From positions 832,001 to 896,000 of the forward strand of contig NW_019028983.1 in the NCBI RefSeq assembly GCF_002105155.1: a DNA stretch of 64,000 bases. Direction: 5' to 3'. The notes beneath the pieces are model-generated. The model did not search any database. It saw only the letters and a program-made list of their open reading frames with translations, and was not told the DNA's origin. A program made the position numbers and the translations under genes. How positions within the stretch are numbered: position 1 is the first letter of the stretch; every line of letters starts with the position of its first letter. Of this stretch, positions 14,436-54,029 are shown piece after piece. This DNA is from Lobosporangium transversale. Its lineage: Eukaryota; Mortierellomycota; Mortierellomycetes; Mortierellales; Mortierellaceae.

Positions 14436-16358
14436 CTATGGCAGCGCTTCGTCATGACCTTTGACATGATCTGGATGATATTCAGGCCATAGATGATTTA
14501 CGATATATGCTGTAAAAGTGCTCCTTTCTGTGCCCTGGAATTCACGACCTTTGGCGGCCAAATTAGCATCCATTAACGCTATCATGTAGGGCAACATGTG
14601 CACTCCGTCTACAGGATTTCGGATGCTGTCCAGAATTGCAATAGATTCGGTAAAGTCGGATAAGAACATTGTGCACGGATATTGGTCCAAGAGATCTTGA
14701 AGTATAGGTGATTCCCGTGGTCGGTGTACGTCTGTCGCCATAAAGATCATAGGTGACTCTGGAGGGGATTCCGCGCAACGTTCCAAAAAGGGAGGCACGG
14801 TATATTCCTGTCTTCGCGTTACTACAGGCGAACTTGCTCTAGACATCGTTGCTCTCTTGCCCGCCATATATGTTGTACGGTCTCGCTTAGACATCTCTCC
14901 TAACCAGGCGATAATCCTCTGCAAATTTCTGGGCACTAACTTCTCAAAGAATCCATCCTCTGTTCGAAAGTGAACACCCAAGAAGCCTGGGGCAGCTCTT
15001 CCGGTTTGGTTCTTCCAAAAATTTATTTGCTCTTCTGCCAGGTTTGTTGCGTCAAGGATTGCCTGGTTCCAGAGCTCCATCCCATGATAAATATAATTTT
15101 GAAGAGCCTTATTTTTTTCTGATTGAGCGTCAACCCTGTCAGTCGCGAAAAGCGATCCAAAGTGCAATACCTTCTCAGGCCGTTTCTGAATATCTGTCAG
15201 GAGTAACTCACGATCATACCGCCCCAGAAATTCTATCATATGAGGGCTAAAGCCTTGTTTGATCATCTCTTCCCTCTCTCTCTCCAGGCGTTGCTCCTCT
15301 GTTTCCGGCATATTTCCATAATCGACCTCGGAATCATCCACGATCCTATATGCATAGCGACTGGTGTCATTGTAAAAATAAACCTCGGTATCCGGGTCCT
15401 TGATCTCTAGATGCTCATACAACCAGTCTAGACTCATTACAGGCCTATTAAAAACACGAATGGGTTCCGTCTGACCAGGTACAGCATCCACAACACCGGC
15501 CAGGAGCTTGGGAATGTTGTAAAAATACGTCCATGGAGTCACAGTCCAGCTATGATAAAATAGACACTCCCGTTCTGTTTTTCGCTCAATCTCAGTCATC
15601 GCCTCACGCTGCTTCTTGGTTTTACGAGGCCAGGCGGATGTATCAATCTCACGACAATACCCGACATCTGTCCTGTTACGTTCAGCCCACTGTTGCAGCA
15701 ATATAGGTGGCTCTTTCCACAACAAAGCTTGAAGCTTATGGCTCAAATGTAAAGGTGGTAAAAGAAGAGTTCGATTGAGATATGCAGCAAGTCGGAGAGC
15801 ATTTTCCAGCGTGATGAGCTGATTATGGAAACCGCTATGTGGTAGGTAGGCGAGAAATTTTTCACCCTCCATGGGTGGCCGATCAGGAATCATTGAGAGA
15901 AAGGGATTGCGTTCCTTATTTCCATCGAGTTGTCGAGATGGTGCGGGATCATATTCATGTTCATTACCATTACCGTTACTGTTGTTGATGTCGTCTTCAG
16001 CCACTGTACTTTGTGAATTTTTGCCATCTGTGTCAGAGCCATCATGCCCTCCTATCGGCGTCGTCGAGTGAACGGGAGCCGGCACAGATTGGCTTGGTAT
16101 CAAAGGAGAAGGGTCTAGTGACTGTGGACGAGGGATAGAAACATGATTGGAGCCTTTGTGAAGTGGTTCTTCCTCCAACAAAATACCATCTGATTTTTCA
16201 GATGGGGATGAGGAATAACTAAGGTATGGAACCCACTCGACTTGTGCGCCCAAGACAAAGAAAACTGTGATGATAATCAGGAACACAAACAAGATCCTGC
16301 TCTTGGACCGGAACTCGGTCTTTGTGCTATTACTGGTATTACCCAGCATGAACGTCAT
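14436..16358 (-). CDS. Type II membrane O-fucosyltransferase-like protein
   Basis: Single exon, 640 aa from the ATG at 16358; a second ATG at 16349 (MLGNTSN) is an equally good start. A signal anchor (ILFVFLIIITVFFVLGAQV, about residues 20-38) follows a short basic cytosolic tail. A Ser/Pro/Asn-rich stem leads to the globular part. That part has FLAYLPHSGFHNQLITLENA and LNRTLLLPPLHLSHK, matching the GDP-binding N-terminal motif of GT65/GT68-like O-fucosyltransferases. GFLGVHFRTEDGFF and FMATD near the C-terminal third fit the HFR..E/D sugar-nucleotide motif. This suggests a Golgi glycosyltransferase; acceptor unknown. Confidence 0.75.
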   Translation of the reverse strand: MTFMLGNTSNSTKTEFRSKSRILFVFLIIITVFFVLGAQVEWVPYLSYSSSPSEKSDGILLEEEPLHKGSNHVSIPRPQSLDPSPLIPSQSVPAPVHSTTPIGGHDGSDTDGKNSQSTVAEDDINNSNGNGNEHEYDPAPSRQLDGNKERNPFLSMIPDRPPMEGEKFLAYLPHSGFHNQLITLENALRLAAYLNRTLLLPPLHLSHKLQALLWKEPPILLQQWAERNRTDVGYCREIDTSAWPRKTKKQREAMTEIERKTERECLFYHSWTVTPWTYFYNIPKLLAGVVDAVPGQTEPIRVFNRPVMSLDWLYEHLEIKDPDTEVYFYNDTSRYAYRIVDDSEVDYGNMPETEEQRLEREREEMIKQGFSPHMIEFLGRYDRELLLTDIQKRPEKVLHFGSLFATDRVDAQSEKNKALQNYIYHGMELWNQAILDATNLAEEQINFWKNQTGRAAPGFLGVHFRTEDGFFEKLVPRNLQRIIAWLGEMSKRDRTTYMAGKRATMSRASSPVVTRRQEYTVPPFLERCAESPPESPMIFMATDVHRPRESPILQDLLDQYPCTMFLSDFTESIAILDSIRNPVDGVHMLPYMIALMDANLAAKGREFQGTERSTFTAYIVNHLWPEYHPDHVKGHDEALP

Positions 16359-16574
16359 ATGCAGCAGTACACTTGTACAGGGCTGGATGAGAGTTGGGAA
16401 TACAATGTATGGCGTTAACAGGGGAGCCTTGCCAACCAGACTCGTAAAAAAAATGGAGCGTGTGTAATTATGTGTAAGAATATAATTTGCGATTGGGATG
16501 TGTGAGAGAACGAGCAATGTGGACCCGAAGATGGGAAATTATAATGGAGAGCTGAATGAAAAGGAAGCAGTGTT

Positions 16575-22200: not shown

Positions 22201-25200
22201 GATGAAAAGTCGTGAACAGCTCGATCTTTCATCACCATCACATGGGCTGTTCGTTCTTTCATCTTCCGAAGAAGGTGACGTTTGCGATTACGTTCTTGTT
22301 TTACGACTTTGACCAAATTTTCTTCGTATCTACGAATTAGAGAAGATACGATGTCCTGTCTTGATCTGCCATCATCTCTACCATCGTCAGCGCTCATCCT
22401 TGGGACCATCGGCCGAGGTGGTACCTTGGCATTTGTGAGTATTTGAGTAATTTCCTCATTTTGAAGCATATGGGCGAAGTTCAATGCTATTCATGGTATT
22501 GATAATTATGATAATGAAAAGATAGTTAGTTTTGAGTAGATTTAAAGGGGTATAGTAAGGGTGATAAGGGTGGCATTTAGTAAATTCAGAGTCGACGTTG
22601 TCATTATGATAACATACCTGTCTTGTTATTTCTGTCCATCGCCGTATGATCAATGCCCATATCAACCAACTCCTTCACCAGCCTGGACATGCCTGATTGG
22701 ACAGCCAAATGAAGCAGTGTATGTCCGGATTCGCTCTAAATTAAGTCAGACAAATCACAAATGAATTAATTGAAATCCACATGCAGCGCAGGTTGACGCA
22801 AACGCAGAGAACAGACTTTGTAATAACCATCTATTACATACTCTGAATGAAGGCAGAACGCGTCCAGGCGCCAGGATTTGGATCGTACGTAAGAAATCAA
22901 GGGCCATCTCCTCCTTCGCTGATAATGCGAACGCGAAACTAACGTCAAAATCATTGCCAACAAAGCTTGCGGGATCATCCAACAAACCAAGGCCAATTCC
23001 TGCTCCATTGCCATGAGCATTCAAAAGATATGCCAACTACATGTTACAATATACGATGACAGATGAAATATTAGTTAATAGAAAGATAAGTTACGATGTC
23101 CTGAAATGCCAAATGCTTAGTTTGAATCATTTAATTATAAGTCATACTTACAGCATTGTCCTGAGGGTACTCATTAGCCATACCGTATGACAGAGATGTT
23201 GCTGCCAAGTTGCAGAAATCGTAATCTGGTGGGGCCATGTACATAAAATCAACCTTTTCAGTCTGTGGGCTCAGTGGGAACGCCAAAGATGCGATCTGGA
23301 CGGAGACAATTCCAGGCTTCAAATTTTCGGCGGGGGGTGTTGTGCACTCCATTACATCATGATGAGAAACTGTTACAAGTTCTGCAGGGACCTTTCCGAA
23401 GTATACAACGGGATTCTGAAGAACATCGAAGTGAGCACCGTGGATGGTAACTCGAGTTCCTCCCAAGATCGTCCCCTCACTAGGCGTGAGGGGGTAAATT
23501 TGTCGGAATTTTGGTGGGGCAATAATACGGTTGCCTGCATTTTGGCCATAGCCGTTTGTGAACCTTGTGCTATTTTCTTGGCCCTCGACCGCCAAAGAGT
23601 GCACAACACGCTCGTCCATCGATTTCGGGGAGGCCATTGAGGCTGAGTTTGTCGAAGGAGTACGCTGATGACCTCTGACCAGTGGACTGTTTGCACTAGC
23701 ATGGCTCAAAGATGGGCTCTGCAGCATCTGCTCATTAGTTGCAATGACTGGAGAGCGGGAGCCAGTAGAAACTGGAGCGTCGATATCTGTTAAACCCTCT
23801 TCTTCCTCCGCATCTTGCTCTCCGCTGCCGGTTTTGGATCGTGCCTCACAACAGATACGAAGCTTTACAGAACCACCCATACGGACAACTTCAGGTAAAG
23901 TCTGCATTCGGACCACAAAGCCCTCGTGCTCGTTGTGATGATCGCAATAACAATTAAGTTTAATACAGACGATAGCATGACCCTTTCGGATATCAATCAA
24001 CGGCTCTCCCGCCGGGCTTTGCTTAAAATTTTTAGCCAAAACTTGCATGATCTAAAAGAGAACGTAGTGAAGAGGGGCGGTAGGTAGAGTGACGCATTCC
24101 ATTAGCTCAAAAGTACACTATACCGATTACTCTATCAGCGTTGAGACGTATGGCAATGTTAAAGATGTTCTTATTCTCCTATGCGCACCTTTCTCTCGCC
24201 GTCCATTCGCATCACACAAGCTGGGCACGAATCCTCAATGATCCGATCTCTGTTGTTGGGTGACACTAGAACAATGTCTACATCCAACACCCTTGCGCCT
24301 CGCATCTCTATGCACCAGATATTAAGTTGAGATGTTGCAGTTTGTTAGCGGCACTTGTAATCCAAAATCGTCTCATATGCTTATTATTCGAGTTCATTTT
24401 TTTTTATAAATTTACCCTCAGGACTGAGTTTCTTTTTAGGCTGTGCATTATCACGGAAGCGATCGACCTTGAACCGTAAGTAATCCCAATCACGTACAAC
24501 CTGTCGGTTATCGTCAAGGATGCTGGTCTTCAAATAGATGATAGGTTCGATACGCAAAGCATTTTTATGTTTGACCGCAACGTAGTGTCGTGGCTTTTTA
24601 CGGAATGTGTATGCTTTGACATCAAAAGCTGGTAGGCGTGAGTGTGATGGGACTAGAGAATGAGAGAGAGTATTGCCTGCTGCCAATGTCAGGGACATGT
24701 CTAACAATGACATATTGCTAAAATGAGATTAATAGTGGTATGGTTAAAGCAATGTTGATCAGAATCTACGCTAAGTGTTGGTCAAATTCAGAGGCCATAT
24801 CATTTGTTCTCTTCTAGTCAAATATAATTTGTATGTCGTACCTTGGCTTTTGAGAATTGTGGCCAAACTGATCCCCATTGGTCAACGATATATCCGCCTG
24901 GTAGAATGGGGTATGAAGGGATTGTGCATAAAGGTTATTAGCCTTCAAAGAATTTGACATCGATAGCTCTTGCCCTGATCCAGTAGGTAAGCTTGTCTAT
25001 TGTTTGTTAGATTTGTTAAAGAGGTTGAGTCACGTGTACTTAACCCAACATTCCAAAGATCCATGATACCAAAGAAATATGCATAGAGAGCATGCTGCAG
25101 ATCAGGGACAGAGGTCGAAAAAGGCTCTCATGCCCTTTCTTTAGTCTCGATGCATAATTCTCTGACACTAACATCTCCCTTCTCGGGGACTTGAAAAAGC

Positions 25201-29423: not shown

Positions 29424-29850
29424 TAATTCTCTTTTATTTTTAGGACAAGAGTTGTGATTTAACAAATGAACATGGCAACAATTGATCTCAAAATGAATGA
29501 TCAACTTTGATTAAAGTCACGTGTAAGTTTACAAGTTTTATTCCACACAACAAAGTCCTTCCGATGTTAATTCAAAGACCTATAGAAATATGTAATGCCA
29601 TATTTACATTGTTTCTTAAGAGCTCGCCCATTTTAAAGCTATGCTGAACGGCCTCTCTATTAAAGATATGGGTTTTCTAGCTTCCTTAGGAGTATACTAT
29701 ATGGAATATAGAGCACTCAGTCTGTCTATCTGTTGATCTGTACGGTTTTTAAAGTTAGTCCAGAAATTCAGGGGCAAAAGATTAGAGGAGACGAAAATAA
29801 ACAGAACTTACAAATTTTTTGTGGGTGTGCCGGCACCCAAATACTTGTGT
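29424..29850. promoter_or_regulatory. Spacer: SAD1 promoter and 3' flank of the Fanzor locus
   Basis: This 427-bp stretch lies upstream of SAD1 and directly downstream of the Fanzor stop codon. In TnpB and Fanzor systems the guide RNA comes from this 3' flank. It contains a near-palindrome at 29825-29838. No coding sequence seen. Confidence 0.4.
29825..29838 (-). other. Short GC palindrome just 3' of the Fanzor stop
   Basis: GGTGTGCCGGCACC-type palindrome, 14 bp with one mismatch, starting 13 nt after the Fanzor stop codon in an AT-rich flank. It could be a structural part of a guide RNA or an element end; it is too short to judge. Confidence 0.25.
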
Positions 29851-31554
29851 CTAGTGTCGTGCGCGCTTTGCAGCCGGAGCAGGCGACTCTTCCGTGGGCT
29901 TGTACTTTGCAGGTCTCTCTTGTCTCTCAATTTGAGCAAGACCGATTCTTGCGATGTTTTCCGCCCCTACTGCGTCACGGTCGAAGAATACCTTACATGT
30001 CCTGCAATATTTAGAGCGAGGGTACACCGTCTCTAAAAAGCTACCGCAGAGGGGTCGGGGACAGCGGGCGCTGGTGTAAAATTCGTGCGCTCCTACAGCG
30101 AAGTGTCCTCGTGCTTTGACCTAAGCGTTTCAAATGGCAGTCGTTTATTAGCAAGGGTTTTATGGCTTTCCAGCTTTGCTTACTTTTTTAAAAAAAGCCA
30201 TACCTGTGTGACAAGATGTCTCGTTATAGCAGTGTGCTTGCTGGGAACTCCTTTACTACTTTCAAAGGATCCTAGGCCGACGACAAGTACTCTTTATCCC
30301 CAAGCATCTTCAACACTCGCTGTACCGCGTAGTCGAACGTAGCTCGTTGAGCCTTTCGTAGGTCCCATTTTTTTTTTCAGGTGCCATCTGGACTCGTAGA
30401 ACTCTTGAAGCACATCCAAATTCGTTGATCCTGTCTGTGTCTGAGACTCCTCGTTCATCCATTGAAAGTACTCATTATACGTATCCCTTCCAAACACAGG
30501 GATGGCGCTCTCAACCTCAATCATTCCATTTTCACGCTTCCTTTTGTTCAACAGGTGATTGAAGCGGAGGACAGGGAGGTACAAGAACCTGCTTCTCACC
30601 TTTACCGTTTGCCGCAAGTTAGGGTTGTGAGGGTCCAGCGAGGAAAACGTAAGGGCGTTAACAATACCAGGATCACATCCGACGATAGTTGTGGTGTTTG
30701 CGGATGGGCATCGCCCTGGTTTGTTGAATGTGAGCTCAACGTTTTCAAGCAGCTTGGAGCTCCTCTTCCAGTTTATGTTTGCGTAGCCTTCATCTGTCAG
30801 GTCTTCACCGGCCGCCTTTGAACACGTCGTGTTGAGAAATCCCTGAGAAAACTCCAGTTCTTGGCTGGGGTCTTCTTCATCTACGTCAGACTGCTGCTGT
30901 CTCTTCGTCTGGGTTGTATCATAGGCAAGTAGATTCAGAACTAGACCGTTGGTAGAAATCGTTCCTTTGAGTTTGAACCGAGTTAGATCTTTGTCCTGTG
31001 GCTGCAGGGATACTTTGTCTTGATATCCACGAACCATGCGATCACCTCCAATGTCACAAAAGAGAGCCTATATCAAAACCCCTTTTGTTCCCTGTACACA
31101 CTCATACATTGCAGTCTTGGAAGGATTATTGAGAGGCAGAATACGCTCCAGCAGCTGCTTGGTATCTTCGTTCACCCAGAGGATGTCAACTAGGGCGTGT
31201 TCAGACAGATACACATACCCGGGTGACCAGGGGGACGTAGGAAAGTCTGAGTATTTTTTCACTTTTTTGTTCTCCCGCAAAAAAAACTCAATGTCACTCA
31301 TATCTTCACTTGTTTTCTCGACATCAAACTAAAAAAAAAAAAAAAAAAAAAAAAAAGGTGTGAATAAAGAGCATTTGATTGCAGAATATGCATGAAAATA
31401 CCCCTACACAAGCTATACCATTGCGTTCCTGTAGTGCTGCCTTAATGATGTCTGTACTTGGCCCATTAGTAAGTCTGACGCTCTTGGAAATGTGATCTTT
31501 TTGGGATCAAAGCCTTGGACGTCCCCAATGTGATGTCTATATCCTTTATTGGGG
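29851..31554 (-). pseudogene. Fanzor (eukaryotic TnpB-like) RuvC nuclease region, broken copy
   Basis: The readable segments are 31419-31554, 30204-31328 (shared with a splice) and 29851-30120. RuvC-I is VGCDPGIVNALTF (Asp codon 30672-30674). RuvC-II is VVGLGSFESSKG followed, after an intron at 30121-30203, by VGAHEFYTSARC (Glu codon 30082-30084). A zinc ribbon C-x4-C/C-x2-C (CPRPLC...CRTC) leads to RuvC-III FFDRDAVGAENI. This series with TSxxCP is diagnostic of TnpB/Fanzor RNA-guided nucleases. Upstream, FCDIGGDRMVRG and GTISTNGLVLNLLAYD fit the WED-like part. Lesions: TAG at 31068-31070, one extra base in a T10 run at 30368-30377, one missing base near 30293-30295 that restores frame, and one missing base near 31545-31560. 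It lies in frame downstream of the FEN1-like part. Confidence 0.82.
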
Positions 31555-33352
31555 AAAGTTCAGTGGTGGCCTTGAAATGTTCATAAGCGAGGTGATGATG
31601 GGGCGTTTCTACCGCCTTTCCTTGTTTCTTTGCCCTCGCGTAAGCTGAATTGGGGCCACCTTGACCACTCAAAAGAAGGGTGGCGAGACGGAAGGAATAA
31701 TCATTGCTATCCAAGACCTCGTCCAGTGCCTTTTTCCTCGACTTTGCTGCCCCTGGTAACCGCATGATCCTCTCAATGTCCAAGGCAATCGCCCAGTATG
31801 CATAGCGGCGTAGTCGGTTGAGGACAACAACTGCCCCTCGGATCTGGCTTGCAATACTATCCCTTTCATCTGCGTCCAGTCCGCCTTTCCTTGCCATGGA
31901 GGCCTTAAGGGACCCAATTGTTAAGGCCTTGATAGGGTGCTTACTGCTGTAGCTGTGATCAACCTTCGTAGCATCCTTCAAGTTCCTAATTGGTGCACCT
32001 TCTTTTTTAGCCCTGTGGGGCTTCTTGCCTTTGTGCTTCCGCTTTTGTTTTTTCTGTTGCTTCTTTTTTGCCTTTCTCCGACGTGGTGGATGCTTAAGGC
32101 CCGGCCTATCGTGCTGACGGCAGTTACTGATATCAACTGTGCGCCCATTCAATATGCTCGGCTTGTCAGAAAAGATGGGCCGGAACTGGTTCCTATGTGA
32201 CCCTTCCGCTATATAGAATGATGGTACGCCTCTACATTATTCAAGAAAGGGACTAACGATTAGTATTGGGGACGTCTGGTTTCAAGGCCAAAAACTATAG
32301 CTTGAGCTTTCTTACGTTCTGCGGCGCTGCGCTCGCCTTTGCTGAGCCATTCTATGGCGAAGATCCTTTCCATTGAGTAGACGCTGCTTGAAGTTATCGA
32401 ACTCATTGTTCGATGGTAACGCTTGGGCCGACGTTTGATGGCCGGAAGTAAAAATGCGGAGAGCTACACTGAAACGGCCTTCCTCAGAGGCTACGTTCCT
32501 TCCCAACACCTTATTAGCTTCCCCGAGGTAATCTTGAAGCATTTTATTGTAGTTCTCGTTCCACGCAACCTTTCGAACCAATCGAAGATTATTAACCGGG
32601 CCTAACGTCTCGAGGTTCCTTGAGTAGTCATTGCCTGCGATGGCACAGAATAACACCAGATGCGCGTGTGTTGGCAGTCTTAGTGCTTGGATAACGTTGT
32701 CTACGTCGTAAACCCCAAACTTCCGTCTACGGTGCGGAAGGGGTCGCACTAGGAAGCAGACTCGTTCGTACGCAAAAAAATCAGAGTCTTGGGATATCAC
32801 GATCCTATCATTCTCCTCATCATGGCACCCTATGCATGGGTCCGCTTCATATGCACACAGACAGACATCGAAGACAGAACTAAGGCCTGTTGCCAGCTGA
32901 TCCTTGTCCTGGACGCTCAGGGTGTGGACTTCTCGAAGACCCTTCTGGATGCGCCTCATGACTTGAGGACGAGTCCATACCCCACTCCGAGAATTTCTCT
33001 CGAAGGTGCTCATATTGTTCTCCAAAGCGTCCATATTTTTTTGTCTTATGGCTTGCCGTTCTGTCCTTGCTTTTTCTTTCTCAGTACAAGGTTCCCCATC
33101 AATATGTATAGTCAGGTTGTCCGTTGTGAAAAGATCCTTTATCTCGAGTGCCAGGGACCTTCCTACATCAATGATGGTTTCGTTTTTCATCTTTGCATGG
33201 ACGACTCTGCGGAGGATGTCGTAATAGAACGTACTGAGGAGATCTAAATGAACAGAATGGTCAGGATTTGCCGCCAAGAAAGTGCCCACGTCAGTTTCCG
33301 AAGGTAAAACCCCGCGATCCGCAACCAGTTTGAAGAAGGACTTCAGCCCCAT
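31466..33352 (-). CDS. FEN1/XPG-like nuclease domain protein, N-terminal half of the FEN1-Fanzor locus
   Basis: Two exons (32316-33352, 31466-32231; donor AC|gtaaga, acceptor tgtag) give 600 aa to the first stop. The start MGLKSFFKLVADRGV mirrors the FEN1 start MGIKGL. Acidic metal ligands are in place: D37 (VHLDLLSTFY), D85 (IHIDGEPCTEKEKARTERQ), E169/D171 (CLCAYEADPC), D189/D191 (VISQDSDFFAY) and D242 (AIAGNDYSRNLETLG, in the H2TH region). So a flap-endonuclease-type active site looks intact. A strongly basic stretch (about 32003-32085, RRRKAKKKQQKKQKRKHKG) may be a nuclear signal. The last 30 codons lie after a probable one-base loss near 31545-31560. In the other frame, GDVQGFDPKKITFPRASDLL continues and splices (donor at 31418) into the Fanzor region. 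The upstream ACC ATG context supports the start at 33352. Confidence 0.78.
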
Positions 33353-34743
33353 GGTCAATATCTAAGCGAAAAGAGAAAGAAAAAAGGAAAAATGGCGGTG
33401 ATGAAAAGAAATGAAAAAGAAAAAGAAAAAGAAAAAAAAAAAAAAAAAAAAAAAAAGAGCGACAAAGGTATAAAAGGATGAGCTTTTTATGGTGTAAAGA
33501 TTCAAAGCGAATAGATAAAGAATATTGAGGGAAAGATACAGGAACAAGTGGCAGTGGTAAAAGGGATGGGACTTTGAAGGAGGAAGACAATGATCCCTTT
33601 TTATATCCTGGATTGATGATGAGTTTTATCATTGCCTCATATAGTTTTGATATCGATCCTTTGCTTCACAGGCCACATCAATCTTTATTCAGTTCCTTTG
33701 TTTGGATTGGGGTTTTGTCCCAGTCAATAGCAGAGATTGACAAATAAATACAAGCTCTCGCATGAACGGCAGATTGGAAGAAATAGCATTGAGATACCAA
33801 AGTGAAACCATCTCGGTATACAGCATATAGTGCTGATGTTGATCCTTTGTTATACAATTTTTTTTCAGCTTCTTTTGTTTGCAGTGGCCCTTGCTTTGTG
33901 AGGAATTTAATGATTTATAATTTTGAACAGGGGTAATAAATGCATTGACAGATATGACTCGGTGATTATAGGTAACAACTAAAGAAAAAAAGTCTTTTTT
34001 ATCAGAGAATGGCTTCAAATGATGCTTTTTGCTCCAACAGCCCCAGTACTATTGCGTTAAAGCAGAGATATTCGTTGGCTCTCAGGTTCCGGCATCAATG
34101 GCGGAGATAGGTGATGTGCTTATTGCTTGGAGTAAAAGCTAGCTAAGCACCCTTTCTTACTGGACGATGCCTTGTTAATGGTGATATTGCGCAGCGCCTT
34201 GTGGATGGAGGGAGAGCAGAAGCGAGAGTGGTGGTTTTTGGCGGTCGTTTGGTGTGTGTATGTGCGAACTTGATAGTTGATACCAATCGCCAAAATATAT
34301 GCATTTAGAATTACAGAAGCGAGATTAATACCGACGCGTTTCATCCTTTCCTAGGGATTGTTATAACCATGGCATGATTGTGGAGTGGCCGCCAAAATAA
34401 AGTTTGTTTATTTCTTCTGGAGGCACCAATGGAAAACGCTTGCTTTCAAGTCGATACTATGGCGAATATTATCACTTCTATTACACCAGTTAATAAATAA
34501 ACAACACAATGGGCCCCCTAAGAGGATGCTAGTGTCATGCGAAAGCCTTCAAGAGTTTTTTTATTGGCACAAATAAAGAAGCCAGGATAGCTCCATGACA
34601 GTTTAGTTTTCGGTCATTTATTTCGACATCGAAATAAAATTTCAAGACAATGCCCATGAATTGCTGGATTTTAAGCCCATTTATAATGGCAAATTTGCCA
34701 GGTTGACGGTTTAAGGGATAGTAGTGATTAGATATAATCGTAT
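33353..34743. other. Intergenic region between FEN1-Fanzor locus and velvet gene
   Basis: About 1.4 kb. It holds a purine-rich (GAAAAA)n and poly(A) block at 33410-33456 just upstream of the FEN1-like start, and ordinary AT-rich DNA with short unsupported open frames. No terminal inverted repeat or target-site duplication could be seen by eye. Confidence 0.45.
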
Positions 34744-49783: not shown

Positions 49784-52700
49784 ATGGACCAGCCCTATCA
49801 GGACCTGGAAGGTCAAACAGTGACTTATGCTGAGCCTCAGATCCGCCGCCAGTCCCAGGCTGGTTTGACTATTGACACCAGAGCTCGAGGCAACACAAAC
49901 TTTCGCCGCCAAAAATCGCTTGTCCGGCCCGAGCGTGAACGTGTTGACCGCAACCATCCACAATACTTTTATAGAAACGTGACACAAAACTTGGATGGAT
50001 CTCATGTAAGAGTACAGCCTTCTACCACAGGTACTGACCCAACCGGAGCAGCCGTCCCCAACCGATCTGCCGGCCTTCGTCGTGGCAAGAGTGTGCTTGG
50101 TCGTGAAATTGAGAAACCTGGGCATTCGCGAGCCAAGGTAAAAACGAATGCTCCCAAGCGTAAGATCATCCCAGACCTTAAGGATCCGCTCAAGGAGAAA
50201 AAGCGGGAGTGGCCTTCTAAATGGGTTATATATTACAATGCTATCACGTGCTGTTTTCCAGCAGCGCTTCTGAGCAAGTGTGGTAAGGAGTGGTTCCAAG
50301 TTTTTTTTTTTTTTTTTTTTTTTGTAAACAGTTCAAAAACAAACGTCTATATGACAAAGAATATCGTCTAAAGATGTGTCATTGTCCGCTTACTTGACAA
50401 TTTAGGTATGCATACACCGGAGATTCAGCGAGCATGGCGCGAAAAGATTGCGTTGGTATCTTTGATTGTGTTAATGGTTTTGGCTGTTGCATTTTTGACA
50501 TTTGGACTTCAACAAGCACTGTGTCAGGACGAACAGAGCGGCAAGTTTGTTGCTGGATCGAGATCCGAAGATGTGATTGTCCATGGCATGGGCTATTACT
50601 TCACTGCACAGGATAATGGAAACGGCGAACCTGTTTTTATGCACCCGCCACTGAACAGGGATGTTTCGAGCGAGAGTGTTGATATTATGAATGCAGAAGG
50701 AGTCTACGCAGCTAAAGGCAAGGACGCGTCATTCTTATTCCAGGACGCTGCTGGAGGCGCTTGTGATGGATTGATTAGGCGTAACGCTCCTGCAGCTCCG
50801 ACCGACAGCCAGGCTAACTTCTACTTCCCATGTATCATGCGTAGTATTAACAGTCCTACTGACTACAACACTACCTATGAAAGAGGCATTAATGCTTGCC
50901 ATACTTCTCAACCCGTTCGTGATTCCTGGAGTTCGCTCAAGAGCAAATACAATGCCCCAGCTTACTACACATGGGAAAACATCACGAACCCTGATCGCGC
51001 ATTCTTTGCATATGATGGCGATGTGATTGATGCAGATATTCTAAACTGGATCAAGCCTGAATTCACTGTGGATGAGAGCATTAATGCCCTTCGTAACGGG
51101 ACCATTCGCCTTCGCAGGGATCTCTCGTTTCTCTTTGTTCAAAAAAAGATGACCCATGTCGGTGACTGCTTAAAGCAAATTGCTCGTGTTGGTGCCATGG
51201 ATTCCAAGACGATTGGCTGTGTGACCTCAGATGTAATCACCTACGTTTCGTTGGTCATCATTCTTGGTGTTGTATTCATCAAGTTCTTCTTGGCTGTGTT
51301 CTTCGGCTGGTTCCTGAGCCATCGCCTAGGTGGTTTTGAAAATGAGACCTATCAGGATCGTATGAAACGTGCAGAGCAAATCGAAGCATGGAGCTCTGAT
51401 ATCAACCGACCTGCCTTTGCTGGCGCCAAACGTTCAACCTTCTTTCCTACTACCTCTCGTTTCACTCCTACTACTAGCAATCCTGGTTCTTCTAACAGTT
51501 TAGTAGCACCGTCGCTCGGTACTCCTAGTGCTAGGCCTGTATCGATCTTTAATCGCCCTGGTGCTGCCTTTGGTAAACCATACACGCCTCCCGGCTCACC
51601 AGGCATCAATCCCGCATTTCTGTCAGCATCTGCTGCATCTAGTACTTCTTTGAACCGCGGTTCTTATCTGAACCAGTCCCCAGGTCCAAATGGCACTCCT
51701 CCTCCATCGCCGCCACCAGTTCCTAATCCCATGAGGCCTGCCAGCGTGCACAGCTTTGGAGGCTTGCGCAATATCTCCCGGCGCTCTTCAACTTCATCCT
51801 CCACTGCAATTCAGCAATCCAACTGCCCTATGCCTACGACACCATTTCTCATCCCTCAGCCCCCTGTATCCTATCAGCCTTTTAATTTCCCCCTGATTCA
51901 CACTATGGCCTTGGTCACTTGTTATTCAGAGGGCATTGATGGACTTCGCACGACTTTGGATTCGATTGCCACAACCGATTACCCTAATTCACATAAATTA
52001 ATCGTTGTTATTTGTGATGGCATGATTATCGGAGCTGGTAACAACATGTCAACCCCGGATATTTGTCTTTCGATGATGCAGGATGACCTTGTGCCACGTG
52101 ACGAAGTCGTTGCCCACTCGTACGTTGCTATTGCGGATGGTACTAAGCGTCACAACATGGCCAAAGTCTATGCCGGGTTCTACAAGTATGATGATGAGAC
52201 GGTCCCAGATAAGAAGCTTCAAAAGCGTGTCCCAATGTGCGTGATTGTAAAGGTTGGAGGTCCTACGGAACAGAACATGCCTAAGCCCGGTAACAGAGGA
52301 AAGCGTGACTCTCAGATCATTCTGATGGGATTCTTGCAACACGTTATGTTTGACGAGCGTATGACATCGTTCGAATACGAATTCTTCAACACTATTTGGC
52401 GCCTCACAGGAGTTTCTGCAGATCGATATGAGATTGTGCTCATGGTAAGTCTATTCAACTGTTTTGTAGCAAAGTGCGGAAAAAAAAAAAAAAAAAAAAA
52501 AAGATTAGCTTCTAACTTGAAATCTTCATTGGTCTTTTGCCCTTTAAAAGGTGGATGCTGATACCAAGGTTTACCCTGATTCACTAACCCGTATGATTGC
52601 AGCCATGGCCCATGATCATGAGATTATGGGTCTGTGTGGAGAAACCAAAATTGCCAACAAGACTGACTCTTGGGTGAGCATGATCCAAGTTTTTGAGTAC

Positions 52701-54029
52701 TATATCTCACATCACATGTCCAAGGCTTTCGAGTCTATGTTTGGAGGCGTTACTTGTCTGCCAGGATGCTTTTGCATGTACCGTATCAAGGCGCCTAAGG
52801 GTGGTAACGGCTACTGGGTTCCAATCCTGGCCAATCCTGATATTGTCGAACACTACTCCGAAAATGTTGTTGATACTCTTCACAAGAAGAATTTGCTGTT
52901 GTTGGGAGAGGATCGTTATCTAAGTACGCTCATGTTGAGGACGTTCCCCAAACGCAAGATGATGTTTGTACCTCAAGCAATCTGCAAAACTGTTGTCCCT
53001 GATACATTCAAGATTTTGCTGTCGCAACGTCGTCGTTGGATCAATTCAACCATTCATAATCTGTTAGAGTTGGTCCTCGTTCGTGACCTGTGCGGTACTT
53101 TCTGTTTCTCGATGCAGTTTGTTATTTTCATGGAGTTGGTTGGAACTGTAGTCTTGCCTGCTGCTATTTCCTTCACTATTTATTTGGTCACTATCTCAAT
53201 CTATCGCGCCATCTCACATGATGAATCGATCCCTGATACGACTGTTCCTCTGCTCCTGTTGGCAGCCATTTTGGGATTGCCTGCAGTTTTGATTGTGATG
53301 ACTTCTCGCAAGATGGTCTATGTTGGATGGATGTTGGTTTACCTGTGCTCGATCTTTATCTGGAACTTTGTCCTGCCTGCTTACGCTTACTGGCACTTTG
53401 ACGATTTTAGTTGGGGTCAGACCCGTATGGTTGCTGGCGAAACAGCTGGAGGCGATCACAGTGCAAAGGAGGGTCAATTTGACAGCTCTAGCATCACAAT
53501 GAAGCGATGGGGTGAATGGGAGAAAGAACGTCGCCAGAAGGCAGCCATTTTGGCTGGGCTGCCTACGCCCCAATTCCTGGTTTCGGATTCCGGTGAGGAT
53601 TGGATGAGTCAAGTAAGAGAAGAGGAGCTTTCGGACGAGAGTTCAAGCTCACGTAGGACTGGTGATAGTTCGCAACCTTTTGCAAGACAAATGACCTCTG
53701 GATCGTCTGCATCCACCGGAGGATACTCGCTCTCAGATGCTCCTGTGTACCCAAGCTCCGGCCTGGACTCAATTCCTTTGATGAACATGCATGCTCCTGC
53801 ACCTGGTGGAACGATAGGTAGACAAAGTATGTATCAGTTCAACAATCCAGACCGAATGTCCACGCTGACACCACCAGCAGCGGGTCACATCCCCAATCGG
53901 CAGCACACATCATCTCCCAAGCAGAACTACACACCTCCTCCCATGCCTCCAACTGGCCCTCGCTTAAATTCGATTGACACACGAGCACCATCAAGGCCCG
54001 CATCACCTTTGTCACGACAAGATTCATAG
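49784..54029 (+). CDS. Chitin synthase, class IV (Chs3-like)
   Basis: Three exons (49784-50282, 50406-52444, 52551-54029) give 1338 aa. After a polar N-terminus come two membrane spans ([16 protein letters not shown] and [18 protein letters not shown]), an extracytosolic region, and a third span ([20 protein letters not shown]). A Ser/Pro-rich linker leads to the GT2 catalytic domain: [26 protein letters not shown] at the exon 2-3 junction, [19 protein letters not shown] and the QRRRW motif in [16 protein letters not shown]-terminal spans end in [14 protein letters not shown], a mark of class IV Chs3-type enzymes. The enzyme polymerises GlcNAc from UDP-GlcNAc across the plasma membrane. The ATG directly follows tttttccatag, so an intron may end in the 5' leader. 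It converges on the zinc-finger gene. Confidence 0.95.

Follow-up and report, generated by a model that had tools for sequence, protein, structure and literature searches.

TnpB is described as a nuclease that cuts the empty site left by its transposon and so sets off recombination by which the element is recopied (PMC11870625). Fanzor proteins are RNA-guided nucleases of eukaryotes, and Fanzor1 is described as also travelling in mariner elements (PMC3627910). In the fungus Parasitella parasitica, the Fanzor PpFz1 carries inside RuvC an FRI insertion that binds cyclophilin (PMC11423790). Here we describe a gene of Lobosporangium transversale in which a FEN1/EXO1-like 5' nuclease domain precedes a Fanzor. 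The gene lies in a mobile element within a 64,000-nucleotide stretch of contig NW_019028983.1 (C73:832001-896000), referred to below as the window, and genome searches covered the 42.7 Mb L. transversale assembly. Taken together, sequences and models show one gene predicted to encode one two-nuclease protein, carried by mobile elements of the soil-dwelling Mortierellaceae in several diverged lineages.

One gene for two nuclease domains

Linkage of the two parts was assessed by a census of the assembly. A Fanzor C-terminus is found within 6 kb downstream and on the same strand at 65 of 78 XPG-like places (median 2.2 kb), against a chance expectation of 0.6. The 78 places were obtained from 121 matches by dropping same-locus fragments, and the 109 Fanzor places from at least 169 matches, after removal of most rows confined to the start of the query; places were copied by hand from the matches listed, and the source counts are lower bounds. 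Thirteen XPG-like and 45 of the 109 Fanzor places are unpaired, and two XPG-like places share one Fanzor. The three unpaired Fanzors examined are all deletion derivatives of family 2 (described below) without most or all of the XPG exon.

A fusion of an XPG-type domain to a Fanzor had been proposed in a sequence-only reading of the window, and the two parts are indeed not always separate in related fungi. P0012 from Podila verticillata (1260 amino acids), P0013 (1183 amino acids, on a 4910-base contig) and P0016 from Mortierella sp. GBAus27b (1153 amino acids) are single proteins that start with the XPG-like domain. P0014 from M. alpina (1053 amino acids) has both parts, its model starting inside the XPG-like domain, and P0015 from the same species (542 amino acids) consists of the C-terminal part only. 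The two-nuclease protein, for which about 1,100-1,150 residues had been expected, is therefore a single chain in other fungi, with sizes of about 1,050-1,260 residues. One predicted protein chain displays both nuclease folds in its model. The L. transversale models P0004, P0006 and P0008 connect pieces of exon 1 with downstream exons, and both domains are complete in none of them.

A search of 5.8 billion proteins with exon 1 gave seven matches, all from L. transversale; its limits excluded proteins of far greater length than the query. The C-terminal 142 residues of the family-2 copy L033 matched nine proteins, of which four belong to L. transversale and five to other sources. Full-length L033 matched one protein; scoring was confined to the 7,988 candidates with the most words in common, a set that low-complexity words may have swamped.

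Intron positions give a second line of evidence. Family 1, to which the window copy belongs, and family 2 are about 31% identical in exon 1. In both, the splice sites are clean; intron 1 interrupts a codon behind its second base, whereas introns 2 and 3 fall between codons. Intron 2 lies between N-A-M or N-A-Q and F-D, and intron 3 between V-T-Q or V-E-K and V-K or A-K. Because three introns have homologous positions and phases in families this diverged, the parts belong to one gene. A chance or assembly join was considered and rejected, given the linkage census, the existence of family 2 and the homologues found in other genera.

The nuclease domains and the window copy

Sequence comparison and models identify the N-terminal domain as a FEN1/EXO1-type nuclease in which the predicted metal-ligand positions are kept. 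The minus-strand reading from MGLKSFFKLV was said to carry all FEN1-type acidic ligands, and the open 345-codon frame does contain seven acidic residues at near-FEN1 spacing (D37, D85, E169, D171, D189, D191, and D242). We take their FEN1 counterparts to be D34, D86, E158, E160, D179, D181, and D233. All seven positions are kept in window exon 1, P0012, P0013, and family 2 (including L033); P0016 is without the stretch bearing the second ligand, and the P0014 model begins after the first two. Window exon 1 matches FEN1/EXO1 chains in fold over residues 2-308 with 13-18% identity. A phmmer search of PDB with P0013 gave no match; profile searches of PDB gave matches. Pfam XPG_I was found at E up to 1 in six of 11 members of alignment A4 (best 0.0043), and it exceeds the Pfam cut-off in a third L. 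transversale lineage (C13:672316, inside locus L057; 25.9 against 24.9). Since XPG_I itself is weak, the FEN1 relationship is drawn from alignment, profile, and fold together.

Fanzor1 proteins share the motif D-X(125-275)-[TS][TS]-x-x-C4 zinc finger-X(5-50)-RD (PMC3627910). P0013 fits this motif, with GMDPG at 939, HEYYTSA at 1116, FDRD at 1151, and four cysteines between; in the window copy the motif is frame-broken. The Fanzor end with RuvC motifs and a zinc ribbon that had been read from the window is borne out by Pfam Cas12f1-like_TNB (cut-off 26.3), which scores 30.6 bits there (E 3.7e-7). The same profile scores 33.2 in P0012, 30.4 in P0013, 32.0 in P0014, 31.4 in P0015, and 25.3 in P0016, just under the cut-off. 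The RuvC glutamate and the last aspartate align with residues 935 and 1000 of the chain of SpuFz1 from Spizellomyces punctatus, which are E541 and D606 by a worked-out offset of 394; the alignment stretch with the last aspartate scores poorly, and the counterpart of D383 is placed by motif only. In a Foldseek comparison, in which WED and REC domains were also sought, the predicted chain matches SpuFz1 across 280 columns (E 5.6e-6), but confidence is low in the middle of the model. These sequence and model comparisons identify the C-terminal part as a Fanzor with a predicted RuvC D-E-D triad and zinc ribbon. When viral_contigs was scanned with the Fanzor alignment A3, 53 places fitted the pattern, and no relative was confirmed among them.

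Coordinates in the window are given in Table 1. The first two GT-AG introns were found where they had been claimed, the basic linker and helical region placed between the two nuclease parts correspond to exon 2, and a third intron was added. The sequence-only reading also held that the joins keep phase and that coding-like sequence runs throughout; this is too generous for the window copy, exons 2 and 3 being frame-broken or stopped. The frame of exon 3 is stopped near 31068 and broken close to an A-run at about 30375, after which comes a further stop. Judged by its frames, the window copy is a pseudogene, a decayed member with less broken relatives elsewhere in the genome. Its left end (near 34442) is truncated, and the left ends of several other copies reach further.

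Long T or A runs occur inside intron 2 of the window copy and introns 1 and 3 of family 2. Poly-T or poly-A stretches also break several other frames of the window.

Table 1. Coordinates of the two-nuclease gene, its element and other genes in the window
Feature	Position	Strand	Remarks
Repeat (mobile-element) copy containing the gene	29727..34442	-	blastn against five other copies; maximal extent of similarity
Exon 1: FEN1/EXO1-like 5' nuclease domain	32316..33352	-	345 codons plus two bases, open
Intron 1: GT-AG, after second base of codon	32232..32315	-	Position and phase matched in family 2
Exon 2: basic linker and helical region	31419..32231	-	Frame broken near 31545-31560
Intron 2: GT-AG, between codons	31329..31418	-	Matching place in family 2
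Exon 3: Fanzor middle part and RuvC-I	30204..31328	-	GCDPG, Asp at 30672-30674
Intron 3: GT-AG, between codons	30121..30203	-	Matching place in family 2
Exon 4: Glu of HEFYTSA, C4 zinc ribbon, Asp of FDRD	29851..30120	-	Glu at 30082-30084, Asp at 29974-29976; Pfam TNB and SpuFz1 alignment
Chitin synthase gene, at least two exons	50372-54029	+	Chitin_synth_2, CHS4
TIG-domain protein	23131-24051	-	Weak SPT23/MGA2 DNA-binding match
700-codon frame	14436-16538	-	Weak O-fucosyltransferase match, below cut-off

Copies and the mobile element

Exon 1 has at least 121 matches in its own genome. In family 1, ten copies including that of the window have the whole of exon 1 without stops. Five family-1 copies were retrieved for comparison. 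All five have open frames for exon 1 and the zinc-ribbon exon, three (c2, c66, and c51) have exon 2 open as 274 codons, and two (c66 and c69) have an exon 3 without interruption as far as the GLGSF motif. Fifteen family-2 copies were fetched, with a median DNA identity of 97.9% (105 pairs, best aligned piece above 1500 bases). Exon 1 is without stops in 14 of them, and L031 is aligned through the downstream Fanzor region by all 14 other copies. Thirteen of the 15 could be spliced by intron motifs. The spliced L033 frame comprises 1209 codons, beginning at the XPG-like start and continuing past the zinc ribbon, with a tail frame unlike that of other copies. Ratios of nonsynonymous to synonymous differences (pN/pS), given with no significance test, are 0.604 for family-1 exon 1 (ten copies picked for a complete, stop-free exon 1) and 0.274 for the start of family-2 exon 3 (13 copies). 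Two further diverged loci, L057 (G000:C13:669000-673300) and L058 (G000:C44:167000-171300), have XPG-like and then Fanzor parts in order.

Sailor (DD82E) elements are known from L. transversale, with a TATA target duplication and terminal inverted repeats usually starting with GT (PMC8533490). A family-2 copy is about 6.2 kb long, and its ends, GTATAGCCCGTTCCATT and, reverse complemented, GTCCGTCCCATT, carry short imperfect repeats. TATA stands after the right end in 11 of 13 copies and before the left end in only one of 12. The left-end motif occurs at 61 places in the genome, and a control motif at none. No transposase was recognised by eye in frames of at least 100 amino acids (both strands of the family-2 copy, minus strand of family 1), and no library was run on those frames. 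The XPG-Fanzor element looks like a non-autonomous element that would be moved by a Sailor-like transposase.

Another locus, L055 (G000:C51:197500-200500), has 85 bp of the family-2 left end in common, at 90.6% identity. Its frames have a DDE_3 similarity below the cut-off (E 1.8e-4) and a HCELQPIE motif, and it is a possible autonomous, Sailor-like partner.

L052, L053, and L054 are family-2 deletion derivatives in which the XPG exon is mostly or wholly lost. L052 and L053 have identical junctions, so the deleted form has apparently been copied.

Proposed function, alternatives and known relatives

We infer a guide RNA, cutting, resection, and an effect on repair. A resident IS630-Tc1-mariner (Sailor-like) transposase would move the element, leaving its donor or allelic site empty. 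An omegaRNA from the right end of the element would guide the Fanzor to cut this site, and the EXO1/FEN1-like domain would strip 5'-terminated strands or flaps at the break. Repair would then proceed by recombination with the element-bearing copy, and the element would be recopied rather than lost. Because 5' resection or flap removal at a break would favour recombination, an EXO1/FEN1-type partner fits a TnpB-like model. We consider the chances evenly balanced for the whole account, in which a two-nuclease protein of Mortierellaceae mobile elements makes a guided cut and then processes 5' ends so that the element is recopied, the window copy being decayed. A stronger version, held more tentatively, is that the permanent fusion of an RNA-guided Fanzor and an EXO1/FEN1-type 5' nuclease is a natural, self-contained machine for cutting and resecting. 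It would steer the breaks that it makes into recombination, by which the transposon would be recopied, and would have been kept while Mortierellaceae diversified.

Several observations weigh against this account. Pfam XPG_I is weak in the window (E 0.018; 15.9 against a cut-off of 24.9), and among P0012, P0013, P0014, and P0016 it appears at E up to 1 in P0012 alone (0.15). One ligand position is Asn (DSN for DSD) in family-1 copies c66 and c69, which have the longest exon 3 frames. Of the spliced family-2 copies, 12 of 13 are interrupted. Sequence matches to SpuFz1 are weak (0.0028 with a profile; 0.13 for the best stretch), and folding of two element right ends gave no signal of an omegaRNA (z -1.35 and +0.75). 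In addition, the apparent copying of XPG-less derivatives implies that movement does not require the domain in cis.

This last point also bears on the best-placed alternative, that the domain acts in transposition itself, for instance by removing flaps or hairpins during excision or filling-in, or by aiding a trans-acting transposase. The gene does lie in elements with short similar ends, of which the left is common with a putative transposase-bearing element. However, three XPG-less family-2 derivatives were found, two with identical junctions, so that elements lacking the domain have apparently been copied, and even though action in trans is possible we regard this explanation as rather unlikely. 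Trimming of the guide RNA (the 5' end of the omegaRNA or of the gene's own transcript) instead of DNA ends is also unlikely, and processing of the cut rather than of the guide is favoured. The domain might also be a catalytically dead module that binds DNA or a partner, as the weak XPG_I scores and DSN for DSD in two of five family-1 copies would allow; this is quite improbable, as P0012, P0013, family 2, and window exon 1 all retain the seven ligand positions, and the third L. transversale lineage exceeds the XPG_I cut-off (25.9 against 24.9). Two neighbouring genes, or one element inserted by chance beside another, would accord with the mostly partial L. transversale database models and the broken frames of the window copy, but single proteins in other genera, introns conserved across the join, the L033 frame running through both parts, and the linkage census make this highly improbable.

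If active, the two-nuclease protein would be a product of natural selection in which a eukaryotic RNA-guided nuclease is joined to one that processes 5' ends. Comparable nuclease fusions have been built by hand by genome engineers. Activity would also make the role of Fanzors for their transposons in eukaryotes directly testable and could provide a starting point for tools favouring templated repair. Resection of ends by the partner domain would give strong support to the idea of retention by recombination.

A Fanzor fused to a FEN1-type nuclease was not found in the literature searched, which comprised open-licence papers only, so its absence is unproven. The domain is like FEN1 and EXO1 of the 5' nuclease superfamily in its fold and seven ligand positions; unlike them, it is part of a Fanzor fusion that travels in a mobile element. 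Similarly, the family-2 ends start with GT like those of Sailor, TATA follows the right end, and HCELQPIE of L055 compares with HCELNPIEL in Sailor (PMC8533490), whereas the XPG-Fanzor element differs in having no transposase recognised by eye and TATA only once in 12 left flanks. The likeness to Fanzor1 and SpuFz1 (PDB 8gkh, 9cey) consists of the RuvC Asp, the Glu before TS and the zinc ribbon, the Asp in RD, and the fold match; the domains listed for SpuFz1 in PMC10432273 are REC, WED, RuvC, and NUC only, whereas the present protein starts with a second nuclease of about 350 residues. PpFz1 is likewise a fungal Fanzor with an added domain, but its addition is not an N-terminal nuclease. In PGv-1 type mariner elements a second nuclease also travels with a Fanzor; as described in PMC3627910, it is a separate GIY-YIG gene of another nuclease family, whereas here there is a single fused gene. 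The locus is thus a variant: Fanzors with added domains and Fanzors with a separate nuclease were already known, and the FEN1-type fusion appears to be the new part.
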